Positions 2 through 8,181 of a DNA stretch of 23,854 nucleotides are shown in pieces. The notes below the pieces were generated by a model. It searched no databases. It saw only the letters and a program-made list of their open reading frames with translations, and was not told where the DNA came from. This DNA is from a virus, in the IMG/VR virus record IMGVR_UViG_3300013130_002448, positions 1 to 23,854 of that record. The stretch is one strand, 5' to 3'. How positions within the stretch are numbered: position 1 is the first letter of the stretch; each line of letters starts with the position of its first letter. A program made the position numbers and the translations under genes.

Positions 2-472
2 AAATCTGATTTTTTTGATGAACGAGTTAGATTTGGTTATCCCAAGCCAAGCGAATATAACGCTCTTATTTTTGGAGCTCGACACGACAAAAATTGTACC
101 GGCGCAAGAATGTCTCTTGTTTCCAGCTTTCAAAATGCTAGAAAAAAAACAATAGTTTTTCAAGACTCTGCTAATCTTGACTATGCACCTTTAACAGGTT
201 GTACTGCTTACGGATTTCCATCTTTAAACCAACTGAATCTTGTAAAAACCGCTCATATTAGTATGAATAAAAATGATATTTCAAAATCTTTTGAAATTCC
301 GCTTCTTTCAAACTTGTCTTGGAAAAAACAAGTGTCTTGTAAACAATTGAGCGTAAATGAATTCTACGATTTTTATAACATACCAAAAGATTTAAAAGTA
401 GTCGGTTTTTTCCAGATGGAGAGCATGGCCACCCAAGCGTTTTATCTTCGCACTGGTTGCACAAAGAATTAA
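2..472 (+). CDS. N-terminal part of a frameshifted GT-B / CDP-glycerol-transferase-like protein (5' partial)
   Basis: The frame is open from the first bases of the window, so the true start lies upstream; the first internal ATG is at 110. It stops at 472, but the last 20 or so residues look wrong. At the T6 run (406-411) a -1 shift leads into the next frame and gives a smooth join, KVVG then FFPDGEHGHPS, continuing into the 457-1026 frame. The joined protein has a GT-B feel: an alpha/beta N-half containing GARHDKN and VFQDS, then a linker ending in a strand (DLKVVGFFPDGE) as in CDP-glycerol glycerophosphotransferase or capsule transferases. I infer a role in transferring a sugar or glycerol-phosphate unit to a surface polymer. 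The family call is moderate to weak; the split of one gene over two frames is well supported. Confidence 0.55.
   Translation, partial: KSDFFDERVRFGYPKPSEYNALIFGARHDKNCTGARMSLVSSFQNARKKTIVFQDSANLDYAPLTGCTAYGFPSLNQLNLVKTAHISMNKNDISKSFEIPLLSNLSWKKQVSCKQLSVNEFYDFYNIPKDLKVVGFFQMESMATQAFYLRTGCTKN
406..412 (+). other. Frameshift site: slippery-type heptamer T TTT TTC
   Basis: In the incoming frame the codons are GGT TTT TTC, giving the X XXY YYZ pattern T TTT TTC used in -1 programmed frameshifting. A -1 slip here gives GFF followed by PDGEHGHPS in the next frame, which is the plausible protein. An added T in the homopolymer would give the same result, so a one-base deletion (real or a sequencing error) explains it equally well. 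I see no strong stem-loop or pseudoknot in the 60 bases downstream, only a weak CCAG/CTGG pairing, which favours an indel over programmed recoding. Confidence 0.6.
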
Positions 473-1026
473 ATAACATAGCGAATCTATTAAAAGAAGA
501 AGGATACTTTTTAATGAGTAAACTTCATCCTTATGAGTACTATGGAAGAAAAAAAAATTATTATAGTGGAAAATTTTCTAATGAGCATTATAGCTGGGTT
601 ACTCCTGTTATAAAGGAAGAACATGCTTGTGAACTTGTTAATTACGCTGATTTTGCTATAAGCTCGATTTCATGCGTCTCGTTTGAACACTACCTTTATA
701 ATTTAGTACATTTAAATGTAGGAATGCATCCAGACGATTCAAAAACTTTGAATAATTCTGGTTACGAACTGTTCTTAAGTAACGGATATGTCAAAAGTTA
801 CATCGAAAAAACTAATTTTGATATATCAACATTGACATTTGGAAAAAAGTACGCATTTGAAGAATTCAAGTCAAATCCAGCTTTTTATATTCGAGAATTT
901 TTACGAACAAAGCACGAAGTAAAAGATGAATATGTCCACTACCAAAACCATCCAATTCTAGGTCAAAGCTATACATCAACTGTAAAAAACGTTGCAGAAA
1001 CATTGATTAAGATTATCAATGATTGA
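457..1026 (+). CDS. C-terminal part of the frameshifted GT-B / CDP-glycerol-transferase-like protein
   Basis: The coding frame really begins just after the T6 run at 406-411, because the codons upstream of the ATG at 457 (PDGEHGHPSVLSSHWL) read as sensible protein and join the preceding frame. ATG 457 is therefore probably an internal methionine-like codon and not a natural start. Visible features are LHPYEYY, with the conserved-looking HP of CDP-glycerol-transferase-like GT-B enzymes, and ADFAISSISCVSFEHYLYN, which resembles the D-x-x-I-(S/T)-x-x-S-S nucleotide-binding segment of that superfamily. The ending ETLIKIIND followed by a stop looks natural. If the frameshift is a sequencing error, this is one intact transferase; if real, the two halves are a broken gene or need recoding. 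It stands at the head of the sugar island and may use the activated sugar made downstream. Confidence 0.55.
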   Translation: MHKELNNIANLLKEEGYFLMSKLHPYEYYGRKKNYYSGKFSNEHYSWVTPVIKEEHACELVNYADFAISSISCVSFEHYLYNLVHLNVGMHPDDSKTLNNSGYELFLSNGYVKSYIEKTNFDISTLTFGKKYAFEEFKSNPAFYIREFLRTKHEVKDEYVHYQNHPILGQSYTSTVKNVAETLIKIIND

Positions 1027-1179: not shown

Positions 1180-2316
1180 ATGAAAATACCTTTTAATGTT
1201 CCTGTCGTTACTGGATTTGAGCTAGATTATATTTCAAAAAATATAAAAAACAAAATTCTCTCTGGTGGAGATGGGACTTATTCTACGCTTTGTAAAGATA
1301 AGATTTCGAGTCTATTTGAAAAAACTGTAAAAGTCTTTATGACACCTTCTTGTACAGATGCGTTGGAGGCTTCTTCAATAATACTGGGGCTTAAAGCGGG
1401 TGACGAAGTTATCATGCCTAGTTTTACATTTGTGACGACGGCTACATCCTTTGCGCTTAGAGGAATCAATATAAGGTTTGTCGATATAGATAGAAAAACT
1501 TTAAATATCGATCCAAATAAAATAGAAGAAGCAATCACTAAAAAAACGAAAGCAATCGTATGCGTGCACTATGCCGGCATAGCATGTGACATGGAAAAAA
1601 TATTAAAAATAGCACAAGAACACAAGCTATTAGTAATAGAAGATGCAGCGCAATCGATGTTTTCTTACTATAAAGGAAAACACTTAGGTGGATTCGGGGA
1701 TGTAGCTACTTTTAGTTATCATGATACTAAAAATTTGCATTGTGGAGAAGGTGGTAGCCTCGTTATAAACAACGAGTCTTTTTTTGACAAGTCTCATATA
1801 ACGATTGACAAAGGAACGAATAGAAGACAATTCTTAGATGGAAATTGCGAAAAGTATATGTGGTTCGAACTAGGCTCAAGTTTCGTTATGAGTGACCTTA
1901 GCGCTGCTTTTCTTTTTAGTCAATTAGAACACGGGTTAGATATTACCAACAACAGGAAGCGCCTGTGGAAAAGATATTACCAAAACCTTTTAGGAAATGA
2001 AGATAACTTCGAGCTACCTTATGTACCCGCTGATTGTGATCATAATGCTCATATATTCAGAATTAGATTGAACGATGAAACAAGAAGAACAGATTTAATG
2101 AAATTTCTTCAATCGAAAGGAATAAGTTCAACGTTCCATTTCGTTCCTTTGCATTCATCCCCAGGGGGTAAAAAATTTGGTAAATTTGTAGGTAACGACA
2201 TCAACACCACATCAGAGAGTAATAGAATCGTTAGATTACCGTTGTTCGATACTCTCTTAGACGATCAAGTAGATTACGTTTGCGAAAATATTACGAGGTT
2301 TTATAATGAGCGTTAA
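1180..2316 (+). CDS. wecE: dTDP-4-amino-4,6-dideoxygalactose transaminase-like (WecE/RffA, DegT/DnrJ/EryC1/StrS family)
   Basis: This is a PLP-dependent sugar aminotransferase of 378 residues, the full length for the family. WecE/RffA converts dTDP-4-keto-6-deoxy-D-glucose to dTDP-4-amino-4,6-dideoxy-D-galactose in the cytoplasm, with glutamate as donor. Many segments match the enterobacterial enzyme closely: the N-terminal IPFNVPVVTGFELDY, GDEVIMPSFTFVTTA (residues 74-88), VHYAGIACDM, IEDAAQ (D155, pairing with the PLP ring nitrogen), FSYHDTKNLHCGEGG with Schiff-base lysine K184, KGTNRRQF, and a C-terminal FHFVPLHSSP. The ATG at 1180 fits because the family starts within one or two residues of it, although no clear Shine-Dalgarno is visible. 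It overlaps the next gene by 11 bases. No RmlA or RmlB is present here, so the nucleotide-sugar substrate would come from the host or from phage genes outside the window. Confidence 0.88.
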   Translation: MKIPFNVPVVTGFELDYISKNIKNKILSGGDGTYSTLCKDKISSLFEKTVKVFMTPSCTDALEASSIILGLKAGDEVIMPSFTFVTTATSFALRGINIRFVDIDRKTLNIDPNKIEEAITKKTKAIVCVHYAGIACDMEKILKIAQEHKLLVIEDAAQSMFSYYKGKHLGGFGDVATFSYHDTKNLHCGEGGSLVINNESFFDKSHITIDKGTNRRQFLDGNCEKYMWFELGSSFVMSDLSAAFLFSQLEHGLDITNNRKRLWKRYYQNLLGNEDNFELPYVPADCDHNAHIFRIRLNDETRRTDLMKFLQSKGISSTFHFVPLHSSPGGKKFGKFVGNDINTTSESNRIVRLPLFDTLLDDQVDYVCENITRFYNER

Positions 2317-3118
2317 GATATGTTTGCCAGTTTCGCATCACTTTGAGTCTAAGGAAAAAGTACAGAAACTTAGAGATTTAGATCTTTATGATTTTTTAGA
2401 AGTAAGACCAAACAAAATAGACTATCAAGAGGATATAGAAAAACAAACAGCATTTCACGCAGATAACATTCAACCGATACACAATTTAAAAGATGAAGAT
2501 TTTAAATTTGTCGAAAAGATTGCAAAAAATAAAAAAAATTTAGAAATAATAAGTTTTCATTGCGCTTGGGCATGTGATCAAATACGCGAAACAGGAATAA
2601 TCGCATACCCTGCTGGTAAAATTTATACACGCGATGAAATGTATCTTAACACTGAAAAAAATATATCGATTATAAAAAATATACTTGGAAAAGATGTTTT
2701 GATCGCGATAGAGAACAATAACTTCTATCCTACGCCAGCGTATGAAAACGTTTGCGATCCTTCTTTTTTAAGAGACTTAGTTTTTGATAACAACATTAAT
2801 TTTTTGTTTGATAATGCTCACGCTAAAGTTTCATCGCACAACCTAGGCGTTGATTACGACGATTACAAGAACCAATTGCCACTTGAGAAAATGGTTCAGA
2901 TTCAATTTTGTCAACCATCCATACCTGAAAAAAAGGAAGAGACAGCTCTCGACGTGCACGAAATACCCGATGCAAAAAATGTCGACGAAGTTTTGAATAT
3001 GTCGACGAGTTTTAATATTCAGTATATAACTCCTGAATATTATAAAGACTTTGATAAACTCGTTGAATTTCTAAAATCTTTAAGATCAAGTCAAAATTTA
3101 ATTAATGTAAAAAAATAA
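2306..3118 (+). CDS. DUF692 / MNIO-like TIM-barrel protein (possible multinuclear iron oxidative enzyme)
   Basis: A 270-residue protein whose landmarks follow the DUF692 (MNIO) family in order: FLEVRPNKID (residues 30-39; family wlEv.penym), SFHCAW (H85; family SeHlaW), IAIENN with E136, FLFDNAHAKVSSHNLG (D169, H172, H178; family lLDvNNvyvsa.N.G), LPLEKMVQIQF, and LDVHEIPDAKNVDEVL (D216, H218; family DTHd.pv.devw). These are the positions that hold metal ligands in characterised members such as MbnB and TglH, which oxidise cysteine-containing peptides. The usual H of the EIHLAGH segment is replaced by QF here. No obvious cysteine-rich precursor peptide or recognition partner lies nearby. Genes on both sides make sugars, so a sugar-phosphate isomerase-like TIM barrel is the main alternative. 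The start overlaps wecE by 11 bases with GAGG about 10 bases upstream. Confidence 0.55.
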   Translation: MSVKICLPVSHHFESKEKVQKLRDLDLYDFLEVRPNKIDYQEDIEKQTAFHADNIQPIHNLKDEDFKFVEKIAKNKKNLEIISFHCAWACDQIRETGIIAYPAGKIYTRDEMYLNTEKNISIIKNILGKDVLIAIENNNFYPTPAYENVCDPSFLRDLVFDNNINFLFDNAHAKVSSHNLGVDYDDYKNQLPLEKMVQIQFCQPSIPEKKEETALDVHEIPDAKNVDEVLNMSTSFNIQYITPEYYKDFDKLVEFLKSLRSSQNLINVKK

Positions 3119-3165
3119 CGTTTTTTAATATACTCTTTTTATAAAGAACGCCTCGGAGACGTGCT

Positions 3166-3891
3166 ATGTCAATTAACACTTCTTTAGAAAACAAGACTAT
3201 ATTAGTTACAGGAGCCAAAGGACAGATAGGCTCAGCTTTGTGTAATTTTCTAGAAGAAAATAACGCAAAAGTAATAAGGGCAGATGTTCAAGATTTCGAC
3301 GTAACATCTATTGACGATACTTATAATTTTTTTCAAGATTGCTCTTCTAAGTTTGGATCAATAGACGTCTTAATAAACAATGCAGGAATTCCTACTTTTG
3401 ACTTCTTTACAGAAAGAAAAAAAGAAGATTTTTTAAAAGTTTTAGAAGTTAACGTGTGGGGCACGTTTAATTGTATCAGAAACTACGTAAAGATTTTTGA
3501 TGAAAAAAAACAAGGAGTGGGATCTATAATAAATGTAGGTTCGATATATGGCTCGGTTAGTTGTGATCCAAGAATATATCCCGATATTGGAAACATGAGT
3601 TCTGAGGTTTATGGTGCTTCTAAGGCAGGTATCATACAAATGACGAAACATTTTGCGGTACTTCTTGCAGAAAAAGGAATTAGAGTAAATTGCGTTTCGC
3701 CAGGTGGGGTTTTTAATGTTAAAAATCCTCAGCCAGATTTTTTCATTAAAAAATATAATGAAAAATGTCCGATGAAAAGAATGGCAAGCACTTCGGATCT
3801 TTTAGGGGCATTTTTATTTTTTTCTAGCGATACGTCTAGTTACGTGACAGGACAAAATTTAATAGTTGATGGAGGATTCTCCGCGTGGTGA
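3166..3891 (+). CDS. SDR-family NAD(P)-dependent oxidoreductase
   Basis: A classical short-chain dehydrogenase/reductase of 241 residues, normal length. The Rossmann nucleotide-binding motif is TGAKGQIG (residues 15-22), the structural NNAG is at 71-74, the catalytic Ser is S126, and the catalytic pair is Y149/K153 in YGASK. The C-terminus has the usual SYVTGQNLIVDGGFSAW. It reduces or oxidises a carbonyl; the substrate is not visible, but its place directly before a NeuB-type synthase suggests a sugar intermediate of that pathway. D40 at the end of the second strand (IRAD) suggests NAD(H) preference, an inference. The ATG has a GGAG at 3155-3158, seven bases upstream. Its stop overlaps the GTG start of the next gene. 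Confidence 0.88.
   Translation: MSINTSLENKTILVTGAKGQIGSALCNFLEENNAKVIRADVQDFDVTSIDDTYNFFQDCSSKFGSIDVLINNAGIPTFDFFTERKKEDFLKVLEVNVWGTFNCIRNYVKIFDEKKQGVGSIINVGSIYGSVSCDPRIYPDIGNMSSEVYGASKAGIIQMTKHFAVLLAEKGIRVNCVSPGGVFNVKNPQPDFFIKKYNEKCPMKRMASTSDLLGAFLFFSSDTSSYVTGQNLIVDGGFSAW
3871..3875 (+). promoter_or_regulatory. Shine-Dalgarno GGAGG supporting a GTG start
   Basis: GGAGG lies nine bases before GTG 3885, an ideal spacing, while the later ATG at 3900 is 24 bases away with no better site. The same bases encode the conserved DGG of the upstream SDR, so the match may be partly coincidental. Confidence 0.4.
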
Positions 3892-4742
3892 TAAATAAAA
3901 TGTTTAGAGATCTTAATAGTCACGGTTACAATACTAAAAATAGATTTTACACAATAGCTGAAATTGGAATAAATCACGGAGGTAGTCTAGATAAGGCTTT
4001 TAAGTTAATAGACTCGGCTGCTAGAACAGGAGTTAACAGCGTAAAGTTTCAAACTTATATAACAGAAAAAAGAGTTTCAAAAGATTCTCCAATTTTTGAT
4101 ATTTTAAAAAGTTGCGAAATCAAAATGAGAGATTTTGAATTACTAAAGAATCATGCCCACGCCCTCGGCCTAGATTTTTTTTCGACGCCATTTGACGATG
4201 AAAGTGTCGATTGTCTTTTAGCTTTAGATATTCCGTTCTACAAGATAGCTTCTTTTGATGTCGTTAATCATAGCCTTTTAAGAAAACTATCCCAACAAAA
4301 GAAACCTATAATAATGTCGACAGGTATGTCTAACTTAAGCGAGGTGAAGACAGCTGTCGATATTTTAGGAACTAATGCATCGATAACATTGTTGCACTGC
4401 ATTTCAGCATATCCGACTCTAGAAATTGATTCAAATTTATCTGTTATAGATTTTCTAAGAGATAATTTCGAGTGTGTTATTGGTCAATCTGATCACACTC
4501 CGGATACTAAAACTGCCTTGTACGCTTTTTTAAGAGGCGCTCAAGTTTTAGAAAAACACTTTAAAGTAGACGATGACTTTGAATGCGTAGACAGCGTTGT
4601 TTCAATAACAGAATTGCAAATGAAAGATTTAGTAGAAAAGCTTCACGAAGCCGATCAAATTTTAGGAGACAACTCTTTATGCGTTACATCCGCTGAAAAA
4701 GAAACTTTAAAATATAGAAGATTTTCTTCAATCGAACAATAA
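3885..4742 (+). CDS. neuB: NeuB/SpsE-type N-acetylneuraminate synthase-like protein lacking the SAF domain
   Basis: This is a PEP-dependent aldol-type synthase that would condense phosphoenolpyruvate with a six-carbon sugar to a nine-carbon nonulosonic acid. The NeuB TIM barrel is complete: AEIGINHGG (residues 25-33), KFQTY (54-58), FFSTPFD (98-104), YKIAS (119-123), STGMS (145-149), LLHCISAYP (169-177), GQSDHT (200-205; usually GYSDHT) and EKHF (223-226). The protein ends at residue 285, shortly after KYRRFSS. Typical NeuB/PseI/LegI enzymes have about 340-350 residues with a C-terminal SAF (antifreeze-like) domain that covers the partner active site in the dimer; this domain is absent and no remnant follows before the next gene. 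The start is GTG 3885 (supported by GGAGG) or ATG 3900; the first conserved residues are at FYTIAEIG, so both are possible. Confidence 0.85.
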   Translation: MVINKMFRDLNSHGYNTKNRFYTIAEIGINHGGSLDKAFKLIDSAARTGVNSVKFQTYITEKRVSKDSPIFDILKSCEIKMRDFELLKNHAHALGLDFFSTPFDDESVDCLLALDIPFYKIASFDVVNHSLLRKLSQQKKPIIMSTGMSNLSEVKTAVDILGTNASITLLHCISAYPTLEIDSNLSVIDFLRDNFECVIGQSDHTPDTKTALYAFLRGAQVLEKHFKVDDDFECVDSVVSITELQMKDLVEKLHEADQILGDNSLCVTSAEKETLKYRRFSSIEQ

Positions 4743-4760
4743 GCCTAAGGATCTTTTAAA

Positions 4761-5150
4761 ATGGAAAAATATAAACTGGTAAAAAATGCTGAAGAGTATT
4801 GGGAATTTATAAGAAGATTAAGAAATTTAGATTCTATTAAAATAGGTTTTATAAAACAAGAAAATATCTCGAGCGAGCAGCAGATCGAATACATGAAAGA
4901 AAATGGTCACAATTTCTGGATATGTCTAGATGGTCTTGAGCCAGTTGGTTACGTAGGAATTATAAATGACGATATTCGTGTAGCTACTCATCCTGATCAC
5001 CAGAAAAAAGGTATAGGAGCTTTTATGATAAACGAAATCATGCAAAAATACCCTAATGCCTATGCAAAAATAAAACTAGAAAATGAAGCAAGCATCAAGC
5101 TTTTCGAACATTGCGGATTCGTAAAAAAATATTTTATCTTAGAAAGATAG
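4761..5150 (+). CDS. GNAT-family N-acetyltransferase
   Basis: A 129-residue single-domain acetyltransferase. The acetyl-CoA pyrophosphate loop is seen as VATHPDHQKKGIGAFMIN (R/Q-x-x-G-x-G/A type, about residues 74-91), and the C-terminal NEASIKLFEHCGFVKKY is the typical GNAT motif B ending. It probably acetylates an amino group on the sugar made by the neighbouring aminotransferases, as PseH does in pseudaminic acid synthesis and the GNAT part of SpsF-type proteins may do. AAGGA at 4747-4751 is nine bases before the ATG. Acceptor specificity cannot be read from the sequence. Confidence 0.82.
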   Translation: MEKYKLVKNAEEYWEFIRRLRNLDSIKIGFIKQENISSEQQIEYMKENGHNFWICLDGLEPVGYVGIINDDIRVATHPDHQKKGIGAFMINEIMQKYPNAYAKIKLENEASIKLFEHCGFVKKYFILER

Positions 5151-5158
5151 GCTTCGAC

Positions 5159-6466
5159 ATGAATAAAGGAATTAGTCTTTGGGAAAAAGCAAAAACAGTA
5201 ATCCCGGGAGGGAATTGCTTACTTTCTAAACGTCCAGAACGATATGCTCCTGACATATGGCCCACGTATTATTCGAGAGCCAAAGGAATAGAGATCTGGG
5301 ATCTTGAAGGAAACAAATTTATAGACATGGCTCAAATGGGAATAGGCACCGCAATATTGGGGTACTCGCACCCCGCGGTCGACGATGCGGTAAAATCAAT
5401 CATTGATCGCGGAATTAATACTACCTTAAATTGTCCTGAAGAAGTTTATCTTGCTGAAAAACTTCTTTCGATCGATACTTTTGCGGGTGGAGTAAAATTT
5501 GCAAGAACAGGTGGAGAAGCGATGTCTATAGCGGTTAGAATAGCTCGCGCTTACACAGGTAAAGATGATATAGCATTTAGTGGATATCACGGATGGAGCG
5601 ATTGGTATTTAGCGAGTAATCTTTCGTCGTCAGACTCTTTGAAAGACCATCTTTTACCGGGCTTGGATCCTGTCGGCGTGCCTAAAAACTTAAAAGGAAC
5701 TGCAATACCTTTTAAATATAATAATTGTGAAGACTTAAAAAATCAAATAAAAGATAAAGAGATAGCAGCGATCGTAATAGAAGGCGCAAGATACGACTTG
5801 GCAAATCAGGATTTTTTAAAAGAAATTAAAAAATCTTGCGAGGAAAAAAACTGCTTATTGATCATAGACGAGATATCTTCAGGCTGGCGAGCTTGTTTAG
5901 GCGGAATTTATCACACGTACGAAGAAGTAGTTCCGGATATTGTAGTTTATGGAAAGGCTATGGGCAATGGTTATCCTATATCAGCCATCGTAGGGAAAAA
6001 GAGCGTAATGGAGTCAGCACAAGACACTTTTGTAAGTAGCACTTTCTGGACCGAAAGAATGGGGTTTGTAGCAGCACTTGCAACTATAAATGAACTTGAA
6101 CAGAAAAATGTGCCTGATCACATCAACTATATCGGAAAATATATCGGCGATATGTGGAAAAAAGTTTTTTCAGAATTTGAAATAGATGCGAAGGTAACCG
6201 AGTATGCACCTTTAATAACCTTTAAATTAAACTATGTAAAAAATGCAGAAATATTAACGTTCATAACGCAAGAAATGCTTAAGAAAGGTTATCTTTCAGC
6301 GCCTAGTATTTACGTTTCCGCTTCTCACACTAAAGACGCTGTCGACGAATATATTAAAAATTTTAGAGATGTGATAAAGTCGCTTTCTGAACTTTTACGA
6401 GATGATACTTTATCCAAAAAACTTGAAACGAGAGTAAAAGAAGAAGGTTTCGCTAGACTTACTTAG
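5159..6466 (+). CDS. Class III PLP aminotransferase, glutamate-1-semialdehyde aminomutase-like
   Basis: The 435-residue protein has the glutamate-1-semialdehyde 2,1-aminomutase (HemL) fold: LWEKAKTVIPGG at the N-terminus, IWDLEGNKFIDM, FARTGGEA (residues 115-121), SGYHGWSDWY (141-150), IIDEISSGWR with D237 where HemL has DEVMTGFR, and Schiff-base K266 in YGKAMGNGYP. ATG 5159 is chosen over the in-frame ATG at 5111, which lies inside the GNAT gene and would add 16 residues absent from the family. A heme role is unlikely among these neighbours. HemL-like proteins recur in bacterial surface-sugar and nonulosonate-type clusters, so amination of a keto-sugar or of a sugar-linked acyl group is inferred. 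The end is followed by a good GAGGTGAG for the next gene. Confidence 0.85.
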   Translation: MNKGISLWEKAKTVIPGGNCLLSKRPERYAPDIWPTYYSRAKGIEIWDLEGNKFIDMAQMGIGTAILGYSHPAVDDAVKSIIDRGINTTLNCPEEVYLAEKLLSIDTFAGGVKFARTGGEAMSIAVRIARAYTGKDDIAFSGYHGWSDWYLASNLSSSDSLKDHLLPGLDPVGVPKNLKGTAIPFKYNNCEDLKNQIKDKEIAAIVIEGARYDLANQDFLKEIKKSCEEKNCLLIIDEISSGWRACLGGIYHTYEEVVPDIVVYGKAMGNGYPISAIVGKKSVMESAQDTFVSSTFWTERMGFVAALATINELEQKNVPDHINYIGKYIGDMWKKVFSEFEIDAKVTEYAPLITFKLNYVKNAEILTFITQEMLKKGYLSAPSIYVSASHTKDAVDEYIKNFRDVIKSLSELLRDDTLSKKLETRVKEEGFARLT

Positions 6467-6482
6467 AGGTGAGAATTTAAAA

Positions 6483-7205
6483 ATGATTGGCGCAATTATT
6501 CAAGCAAGGATGGGTTCTACTCGTCTTCCTGGTAAAGTTTTAAAGAATGTAGGAGAAAAACCCCTCTTACTTTACATGATAGAACGCGTTCGAAAGTCTA
6601 AAAAATTAGATAAGGTTATAGTAGCTACGTCTATTCTTGAAAAAGATAACGTAATAGAAGATTTTTGCAAAGAGAATAATATAGACTATTTTAGAGGTTC
6701 TGAATCCGACGTTTTACAGAGATATTATGAATGTGCAAAAAGTTATAGTTTAGATATCATTGTAAGATTGACAGCAGACTGTCCTTTAATAGATTTTTTT
6801 ATGATAGATAAATGTCTCGAAAATTTTAATGCGAATCCAGAATTATCTTATTACGCGAATACTTGTCCTGCAAACTTAAGCACGTATCCGAATGGATCGG
6901 ATATAGAGATTTTTTCATTTAATGCTCTAGAAAAAGCTAATGTTCTTGAAAATTCCATGGAAGGAAGAGAACACGTTACTCACTACATGTGTCGAGAAAA
7001 AGAAATTTTTAAAACAGGCATGTTAAAAAATTCGCAAGACTGGTCAGGATATAGATACACTGTCGATAATCACGAAGATTTTGAAGTAGTTTCTTTTTTG
7101 TTCGATGAGATAAACAAGAAAAAAATAGATGGCACTACGCAAGAAATAGTAAAAATACTAGATGAACATCCTGATATAAGAGCATTAAATAAAATTTATA
7201 CGTGA
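6483..7205 (+). CDS. SpsF-type cytidylyltransferase (CMP-sugar activating)
   Basis: A nucleotidyltransferase of 240 residues in the KdsB/NeuA/SpsF group. The CTP-binding signature IQARMGSTRLPGKVL is at residues 6-20, followed by PLLLYMIERV, VIVATS, FRGSESDVLQRYYE, VRLTADCPLID (the metal-binding region) and EGREHVTHYM. It would transfer CMP onto the 2-keto sugar acid made by the NeuB-like synthase, giving the donor for a glycosyltransferase. The start has AGAGGTGAG about nine bases upstream. It is the last gene of the low-GC sugar block; the next gene follows after eight bases but has different composition. SpsF of Bacillus has the same core and also pairs with a NeuB homologue (SpsE). Confidence 0.87.
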   Translation: MIGAIIQARMGSTRLPGKVLKNVGEKPLLLYMIERVRKSKKLDKVIVATSILEKDNVIEDFCKENNIDYFRGSESDVLQRYYECAKSYSLDIIVRLTADCPLIDFFMIDKCLENFNANPELSYYANTCPANLSTYPNGSDIEIFSFNALEKANVLENSMEGREHVTHYMCREKEIFKTGMLKNSQDWSGYRYTVDNHEDFEVVSFLFDEINKKKIDGTTQEIVKILDEHPDIRALNKIYT

Positions 7206-7213
7206 AATAAAAA

Positions 7214-8149
7214 ATGAAAAGTATAGCTGTAATAGGCCAAGGATTCGTTGGTGGATCGCTTACAACTGTTTTCGCAGAGCGCGGGTTCGATGTTTACGCT
7301 TACGACAAAGCCGGTAAGTACGTAAAAGGCGCGCTGCCGTCCCACGGCGATCCTGTCGCTGGTTACCCTGGATCTATTGCAGAATTAATCGGAGATAATG
7401 AGGAAGGTGGAACACCAGGTTTTTCTAAAGTTTATTTTGTGTGCCTTCCTACGCCCATGCTTGAAGATGGCTCAGCAGATCTCAGTATCGTGGAAGGCGC
7501 TTTAAAAGAGTTAGCCGCGGTACCAGGCGAAAGAATCGCTGTAATTAAGTCTACAGTTCCACCAGGTTCTACCGAGATGTGGAACGAAATGTTTAAAGAA
7601 GCAGGTTTACATGTCGTTTTTAATCCTGAATTTTTGACAGAAAGAACGGCCTTAGACGACATGCGCAATCAAGATAGAATTATCTTGGGTGGTCCGCGAC
7701 CGTGGATCAATACGGTAAAGCAAATTTTTAGAACAGCATTTCCGAATACTAAGATGATCAAAACATCATCAACAACTGCAGAGATGGTAAAATATTTGAC
7801 GAATAACTTCTTGACCGTCAAGGTAGCTTTTGCTAACGAGATGCTTCAAGTTTGCGAAGCACTCGACAAGGTAGGTCTTAACGTTGACTATGACAAAGTG
7901 GTTGAGTACGCTTCTCACGACGCGAGAGTAGGACCCAGTCATTGGAACGTGCCTGGACCTGATGGACGTTATGGTTACGGAGGAAGCTGTTTTCCTAAGG
8001 ATGTTAATGCGATGATTTATGTCGCAAAATCCTTAGGCGTTAATCCCACATTACTTCAAGCGGCGTGGGAAAAGAATCTCGAAGTAAGACCCGAAAGAGA
8101 TTGGGAAAAATTAGTCGGTAGAGCTATTTCGAAAAAGCCTAACACTTGA
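7214..8149 (+). CDS. ugd: UDP-glucose/GDP-mannose dehydrogenase, C-terminally short
   Basis: The NAD-dependent oxidation of UDP-glucose (or a related nucleotide sugar) to the uronic acid is the family reaction. Visible are the Rossmann motif IGQGFVGGSL (residues 7-16), VCLPTPM (77-82), KSTVPPGST (112-120), FNPEFLTE (137-143), the K194/N198 region in EMVKYLTNNFL, and the active site GYGGSCFPKD with C259. At 311 residues it lacks the usual C-terminal nucleotide-sugar-binding domain (family 390-450), so substrate binding must be incomplete or altered; the catalytic Cys is kept. Residues 33-70 appear compressed compared with cellular Ugd. The beginning is GC-rich compared with the island before it (about 60 percent over 7321-7380 by hand count), hinting at a different history. 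ATG 7214 precedes the glycine motif by seven residues as expected. Confidence 0.85.
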   Translation: MKSIAVIGQGFVGGSLTTVFAERGFDVYAYDKAGKYVKGALPSHGDPVAGYPGSIAELIGDNEEGGTPGFSKVYFVCLPTPMLEDGSADLSIVEGALKELAAVPGERIAVIKSTVPPGSTEMWNEMFKEAGLHVVFNPEFLTERTALDDMRNQDRIILGGPRPWINTVKQIFRTAFPNTKMIKTSSTTAEMVKYLTNNFLTVKVAFANEMLQVCEALDKVGLNVDYDKVVEYASHDARVGPSHWNVPGPDGRYGYGGSCFPKDVNAMIYVAKSLGVNPTLLQAAWEKNLEVRPERDWEKLVGRAISKKPNT

Positions 8150-8181
8150 ACTAACGACTTACGGGGTGTTACTATGTTTCA

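Follow-up and report, generated by a model that had tools for sequence, protein, structure and literature searches.

The characterised MNIO (DUF692) enzymes act on peptides (PMC12452194, PMC10880893, PMC8888699). In the MNIO survey, DUF2063 partners go with most of the clusters, and some of the precursor genes are unlinked from the MNIO gene (PMC12452194). In TglH, Fe1 and Fe2 are held by H71, H107, E151, D184, H216 and E258, and Fe3 by D184, N187, D229 and H231 (PMC10880893); the ligands of MbnB agree with this set (PMC8888699). A mixed-valent di-iron site is common to the MNIOs and the sugar-alcohol oxygenase MIOX (PMC13419390), and Endonuclease IV (EndoIV) carries the pattern D-x-x-H at its third metal (PMC13113976). 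No sugar-linked DUF692 or MNIO protein was found in the literature.

The gene considered here lies in a 23.9-kb virus record, called the window below. Its reading frame is intact and overlaps the end of the wecE gene by 11 bases. The order and coordinates described in an earlier note, made from the sequence alone, were borne out: the gene overlaps the aminotransferase and is followed by the SDR and the NeuB-type synthase (Table 1). The carbohydrate block runs from the WecE gene through the nucleotide-sugar dehydrogenase gene (1180–8149), and on its 3′ side there are matches to a PD-(D/E)XK exonuclease, two glycosyltransferases, a late-sigma-like factor and baseplate wedge proteins (gp25 type and phrog_219). 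These matches suggest that the window comes from a T4-like tailed phage, and the proposed setting, a phage carbohydrate operon, agrees with the Pfam and NCBIfam matches of the neighbours and with the phage genes downstream.

Table 1 Genes of the carbohydrate block, in window positions
Feature	Position	Strand	Basis
WecE-type (DegT) sugar aminotransferase	1180..2316	+	TIGR02379 471 bits, above cut-off
Divergent MNIO/DUF692-superfamily TIM-barrel protein	2306..3118	+	270 aa, ATG start; PF05114 37.1 bits; fold matches of AlphaFold2 model
SDR oxidoreductase, PtmA/PRK09186-like	3166..3891	+	PF13561; NF006619 165 bits, below that model's cut-off
Short NeuB-type synthase, 285 aa, no SAF domain match	3885..4742	+	PF03102 221 bits
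GNAT acetyltransferase	4761..5150	+	PF00583
Class-III (GSAM-like) aminotransferase	5159..6466	+	PF00202
CMP-sugar-type cytidylyltransferase	6483..7205	+	PF02348 114 bits
Nucleotide-sugar dehydrogenase, 311 aa, without the usual C-terminal third	7214..8149	+	TIGR03026 positions 2–295 of 413

By sequence and predicted fold, the 270-aa protein is a divergent member of the MNIO/DUF692 group, and the membership proposed in the earlier note is upheld by a Pfam match above cut-off, by a profile–profile match and by structure comparison. Its viral relatives are 99% (L002), 85% (L003) and 43% (L020) identical to it. The family model PF05114 (MbnB_TglH_ChrH) matched the window protein with an E value of 2.7e-9 (37.1 bits), the L003 protein with 43 bits and the L020 relative with 50 bits, all above the gathering threshold of 25, and a Pfam search up to E 10 returned no family besides it, PF01261/AP_endonuc_2 being among the non-matches. 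The profile of three viral proteins matched 51 MNIOs with a profile–profile probability of 99% (E 2.4e-17); the same profile gave a probability of 0.2% against E. coli EndoIV (Nfo), with no detectable sequence relation. The equivalog models of characterised MNIOs in NCBIfam responded weakly and far under their cut-offs (BufB 36 bits against 310, ApyH 30 against 400, HvfB 28 against 360 and MbnB 21 against 325). In the tree the viral clade is monophyletic, on a branch so long that its position among the MNIOs is not readable.

AlphaFold2 models were built from the three viral sequences; that of the window protein has a pLDDT of 76.6 and a pTM of 0.81, and that of the L020 relative has 81.2 and 0.84. 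Foldseek placed MbnB and TglH on top for two models (best E 2.7e-11 and 1.0e-9), and the nearest solved folds were TglH (8hi7), MbnB (7tcr, 7dz9 and 7fc0) and 3bww. In structural comparison, the MNIOs (MbnB, TglH and 3BWW) reached Z scores of 18–20 with an rmsd of 2.9–3.7 Å over 217–243 residues, followed by IolI (17.4–18.3), tagatose 3-epimerase-like proteins and EndoIV (about 16). The lead of the MNIOs over the sugar epimerases was seen in both models, yet it is modest (about 1–2 Z), which is what the members of one superfamily should give. A better fit to xylose-isomerase-like structures, named in the earlier note as the finding that would speak against its assignment, did not appear.

The ligands of TglH and MbnB were mapped onto the window protein residue by residue through the profile alignment. 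The equivalents of the Fe1/Fe2 ligands are H51, H85, E136, D169, Q200 and E244, and those of the Fe3 ligands are D169, H172, D216 and H218; in seven of the nine columns (H51, H85, E136, D169, D216, H218 and E244), each of the three viral proteins has the TglH residue. Metal ligands of this barrel type need to sit at the C-terminal ends of the strands, and in the model H51, H85, E136, D169, Q200 and E244 are found at or just past these ends on successive barrel strands. H59 was considered as a ligand and ruled out: in the model, H51 is the last residue of strand 3, and it is H51 that aligns with the MNIO histidine in the profile comparison. The motifs quoted in the earlier note are all in place (SFHCAW 83–88, E136, FDNAH 168–172, SSHNLG 176–181 and LDVHE 215–219). 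By position, its ligand list stands for H85, E136, D169, H172, D216 and H218; H178, which adjoins the conserved N179, is no ligand and lies in a variable column (His in 7 of 52 MNIOs), and the list lacked H51, E244 and the change of His to Gln at position 200.

The two remaining columns set the viral proteins apart. The column of TglH N187 holds His (H172) in all three of them and Asn in every one of the 49 ungapped MNIOs; the MNIOs compared had been selected for their likeness to the viral profile, which biases the set. The column of TglH H216 holds Q200 in the window and L003 proteins and His in the L020 relative (QIHLCK), so the Gln appears specific to the window/L003 lineage. Among the other columns that are at least 88% conserved in MNIOs (n = 32), about 10 are kept in the window protein; HLAGH, replaced by (Q/H)xC(Q/K), and the Asp after the last Glu are lost, and S[DE]H has Phe in place of its acidic residue. 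The change of Asn to His at site 3 bars filing the protein as an ordinary iron MNIO and, taken with the change of His to Gln, means that the iron/O2 chemistry of the peptide MNIOs cannot be assumed.

The order MNIO–SDR–NeuB is present in L002, L003 and L020, and the MNIO-like gene is intact in each of them as well as in the window. NeuB is followed by GNAT, aminotransferase and cytidylyltransferase genes in the window, L002 and L003, and by aminotransferase, cytidylyltransferase and GNAT genes in L020. The unit that recurs in the distant viral contig L020 comprises the MNIO, the SDR, the short NeuB, the GNAT, the class-III aminotransferase and the cytidylyltransferase; identities between the window and L020 are 43% for the MNIO, 48% for the SDR, 54% for NeuB, 53% for the GNAT and 59% for the aminotransferase, and the cytidylyltransferases are weakly similar (31% over about half). 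The nucleotide-sugar dehydrogenase, found in the window, L002 and L003, is outside the unit shared with L020. The order wecE–DUF692–SDR–neuB, for which the earlier note proposed a survey, was found again in L003 (85% amino acid identity) and L020 (43%). The upstream DegT enzyme of L020 differs from that of the window (29% over part). The window and L020 contigs have in common a PDDEXK exonuclease and a pair of phrog_2170 glycosyltransferases, so both may come from distantly related phages within a single group, and the recurrence would then not be fully independent. Between the window and L003, dN of the MNIO gene is 0.096 and dS about 1.2 (near saturation), with its neighbours behaving alike, and this computation on the aligned genes points to purifying selection on the MNIO gene.

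Searches for further relatives returned none. The annotated phage collection contained no match to the window protein or to the L020 relative, and a scan of the genome collection with the window protein alone as query gave no relative. A DNA-pattern scan of 85k genomes for the motif D-[x]-A-H-A...H-N, which divergent motifs would escape, gave 37 matches and no relative among them. A profile search of about 1,350 genomes returned ordinary MNIOs only (up to 48 bits); these genomes, which are samples and not exhaustive, comprised 8 mixed ones, 395 from the phylum of a Chryseobacterium, 369 from the class of a Massilia, 289 from the phylum of a Verrucomicrobiales genome and 289 from the class of a Rhizobium. 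One candidate, L009, was dropped, its match being antisense to a terminase-like ORF. The branch is so far viral-only, within a limited sampling of three distinct sequences at two levels of divergence.

The class-III aminotransferase, in turn, has bacterial relatives (39–52% identical) in pseudaminic-type clusters, where genes for DegT enzymes, cytidylyltransferases and NeuB proteins of full length are close by; one relative (46%) belongs to an annotated pse cluster on a Pseudosulfitobacter plasmid. In 15 bacterial regions around such relatives, no MNIO-like ORF was found at E up to 1, so that within this limited sampling the MNIO gene looks like a phage addition to a bacterial-type sugar module.

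Several other features of these loci were observed. The bacterial aminotransferase relatives are often about 680 aa long with an apparent extra N-terminal domain (L134, L137–L140 and L144–L147), likely a cytidylyltransferase, to judge from the separate neighbouring gene in L133, L135, L136 and L142; no function was found in the literature for fused class-III aminotransferases of about 680 aa. The NeuB proteins of the phage cassettes (L020 7190–8008, and that of the window) have 272–285 aa and no SAF match, against about 340–350 aa in most of the compared bacterial clusters. The UDP-sugar dehydrogenase-like protein stops before the usual C-terminal domain at 311 aa in the window, 313 aa in L002 and 311 aa in L003, and the truncation appears stable because the lengths are nearly equal. 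Between the dehydrogenase and PDDEXK genes, L002 (8992–9726) and L003 (13930–14595) have an ORF of 221–244 aa resembling a homing-endonuclease-type protein, and the window has 32 bases only (8150–8181), an apparent empty site. Upstream of the cassette, at window positions 2–1026, a 406-aa gene with a weak glycosyltransferase-type match is split by a frameshift near 410–470 (ORFs 2–472 and 457–1026), either a sequencing error or real decay; the same gene is unbroken in L002 (604–1824). On the 5′ side of the L003 cassette (1–2289), ORFs resembling heptose/NDP-sugar genes (an epimerase, an HldE-like nucleotidyltransferase and kinase, and a HAD phosphatase) look like a larger phage glycan block.

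On balance, we favour, as somewhat probable, the explanation that the protein belongs to a divergent, so far viral-only MNIO branch with a putative function inside a phage aminosugar/nonulosonate pathway. The enzyme would bind two or three transition-metal ions, and its substrate would be a small carbohydrate intermediate, either an aminosugar or the aldose/keto sugar of the SDR/NeuB steps, as its co-inheritance with these genes suggests; the CMP-activated acidic sugar that the phage would thereby produce would be destined for a glycan. Its chemistry could be oxidative, using O2 at a di- or tri-iron site in the manner of MNIOs or MIOX, or it could be a non-redox reaction at a Zn/Mn site, such as isomerisation, epimerisation or hydrolysis. 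Against this explanation, a position next to sugar genes is no proof that the substrate is a sugar, and a metal site may be weakened by the change of His to Gln that the window clade shows.

With respect to chemistry, one narrower account is possible though not probable: the protein would be a non-redox sugar isomerase, epimerase, dehydratase or hydrolase, in which the MNIO barrel has drifted back to the divalent-metal chemistry (Zn, Mn or Mg) of EndoIV and xylose-isomerase-like enzymes. The site-3 His, invariant in the viral clade, reproduces the EndoIV ligand pattern D-x-x-H (PMC13113976), which is also visible in the E. coli Nfo sequence IDTCHA; by position, all nine EndoIV-type ligands are present in the L020 relative and eight of nine in the window protein, Q200 being the exception. 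The sugar context and the rank of IolI and tagatose 3-epimerase as next structural neighbours, about 1–2 Z below the MNIOs, fit this account as well, but the sequence kinship is with MNIOs and not with EndoIV, MNIO structures still rank first, and neither the metal nor the chemistry can be settled by a single residue. The complementary account, that a phage-recruited multinuclear-iron oxidase of the MNIO superfamily oxidises a carbohydrate intermediate in nonulosonate-type sugar biosynthesis, is put forward tentatively and is rather doubtful.

It is unlikely that the protein is a peptide-modifying (RiPP-type) MNIO with its precursor and partner encoded elsewhere in the phage or the host. Characterised MNIOs do act on peptides (PMC12452194, PMC10880893, PMC8888699), unlinked precursor genes exist (PMC12452194), and a peptide substrate or partner could be encoded outside these contig fragments. 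However, the non-coding gaps of the cassette have no forward ORF of at least 20 aa, in line with the remark that no precursor peptide is visible there, and no DUF2063 partner was detected in the three viral records, all of which are fragments; moreover, S[DE]H, HLAGH and E-[RW]-D of ordinary MNIOs are lost, and the gene is co-inherited with sugar genes across a large divergence. The earlier note had offered either a sugar-directed chemistry in the MNIO fold or a phage peptide modification linked to the sugar, and the former appears the better option, since five sugar genes have been inherited together with this one in both of the distant contigs, and neither a RiPP precursor nor a DUF2063 partner is visible. 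An inactive remnant, or a structural or regulatory subunit of a neighbouring enzyme, is very improbable: the window and L003 proteins do have Gln for His at one ligand position, but dN is low relative to dS, the ligands are otherwise kept, and the gene is intact in the window, L002, L003 and L020.

MNIOs have been described as peptide or protein maturases. A branch that retains nearly the entire metal site, has lost most of the other conserved positions and is inherited along with sugar genes would show the fold serving small-molecule chemistry, and it would link the peptide oxidases with the sugar-isomerase/EndoIV superfamily, whose fold they share. It would also point to an unrecognised phage-made sugar, possibly altering a host or virion glycan. 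If the carbohydrate-oxidising account were true, this would be the first non-peptide substrate class for the MNIO family and a new step in acidic-sugar biosynthesis.

Compared with the known systems, the viral protein shares with the MNIO/DUF692 family (PF05114: MbnB, TglH, ChrH, HvfB and BufB) the TIM barrel and, by alignment and apart from Q200, the ligand order H-H-E-D-x-x-(N)-H-D-x-H-E, but it is 12–18% identical to the solved MNIOs and differs from them in the site-3 His and in (Q/H)xC(Q/K) for HLAGH; unlike the characterised members, it is viral and located in a sugar cassette, with no precursor seen in the cassette gaps and no DUF2063 in the three records. Its predicted ligands correspond by position to those of Endonuclease IV, a three-metal TIM barrel, in eight of nine cases, among them the D-x-x-H of the third metal, whereas profile-level sequence similarity and a DNA-repair context are absent and the structural rank is lower. 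IolI, tagatose 3-epimerase and YcjR of the xylose-isomerase-like superfamily resemble it in fold and sugar context, but they score below the MNIOs structurally. The 3-epimerases hold one metal by E, D, H and E, and the viral proteins, in contrast, keep additional H, H, H, D and H ligand positions. The cassette as a whole resembles the bacterial pseudaminic/legionaminic acid clusters in its PseC, PseI/NeuB, cytidylyltransferase, GNAT and PtmA-like SDR classes and in an aminotransferase 39–52% identical to theirs, which in bacteria is often fused to a further domain; the phage cassette differs from these clusters in having the MNIO gene, which was absent from the 15 bacterial regions compared, and a short NeuB, without PseB/PseG-type genes.
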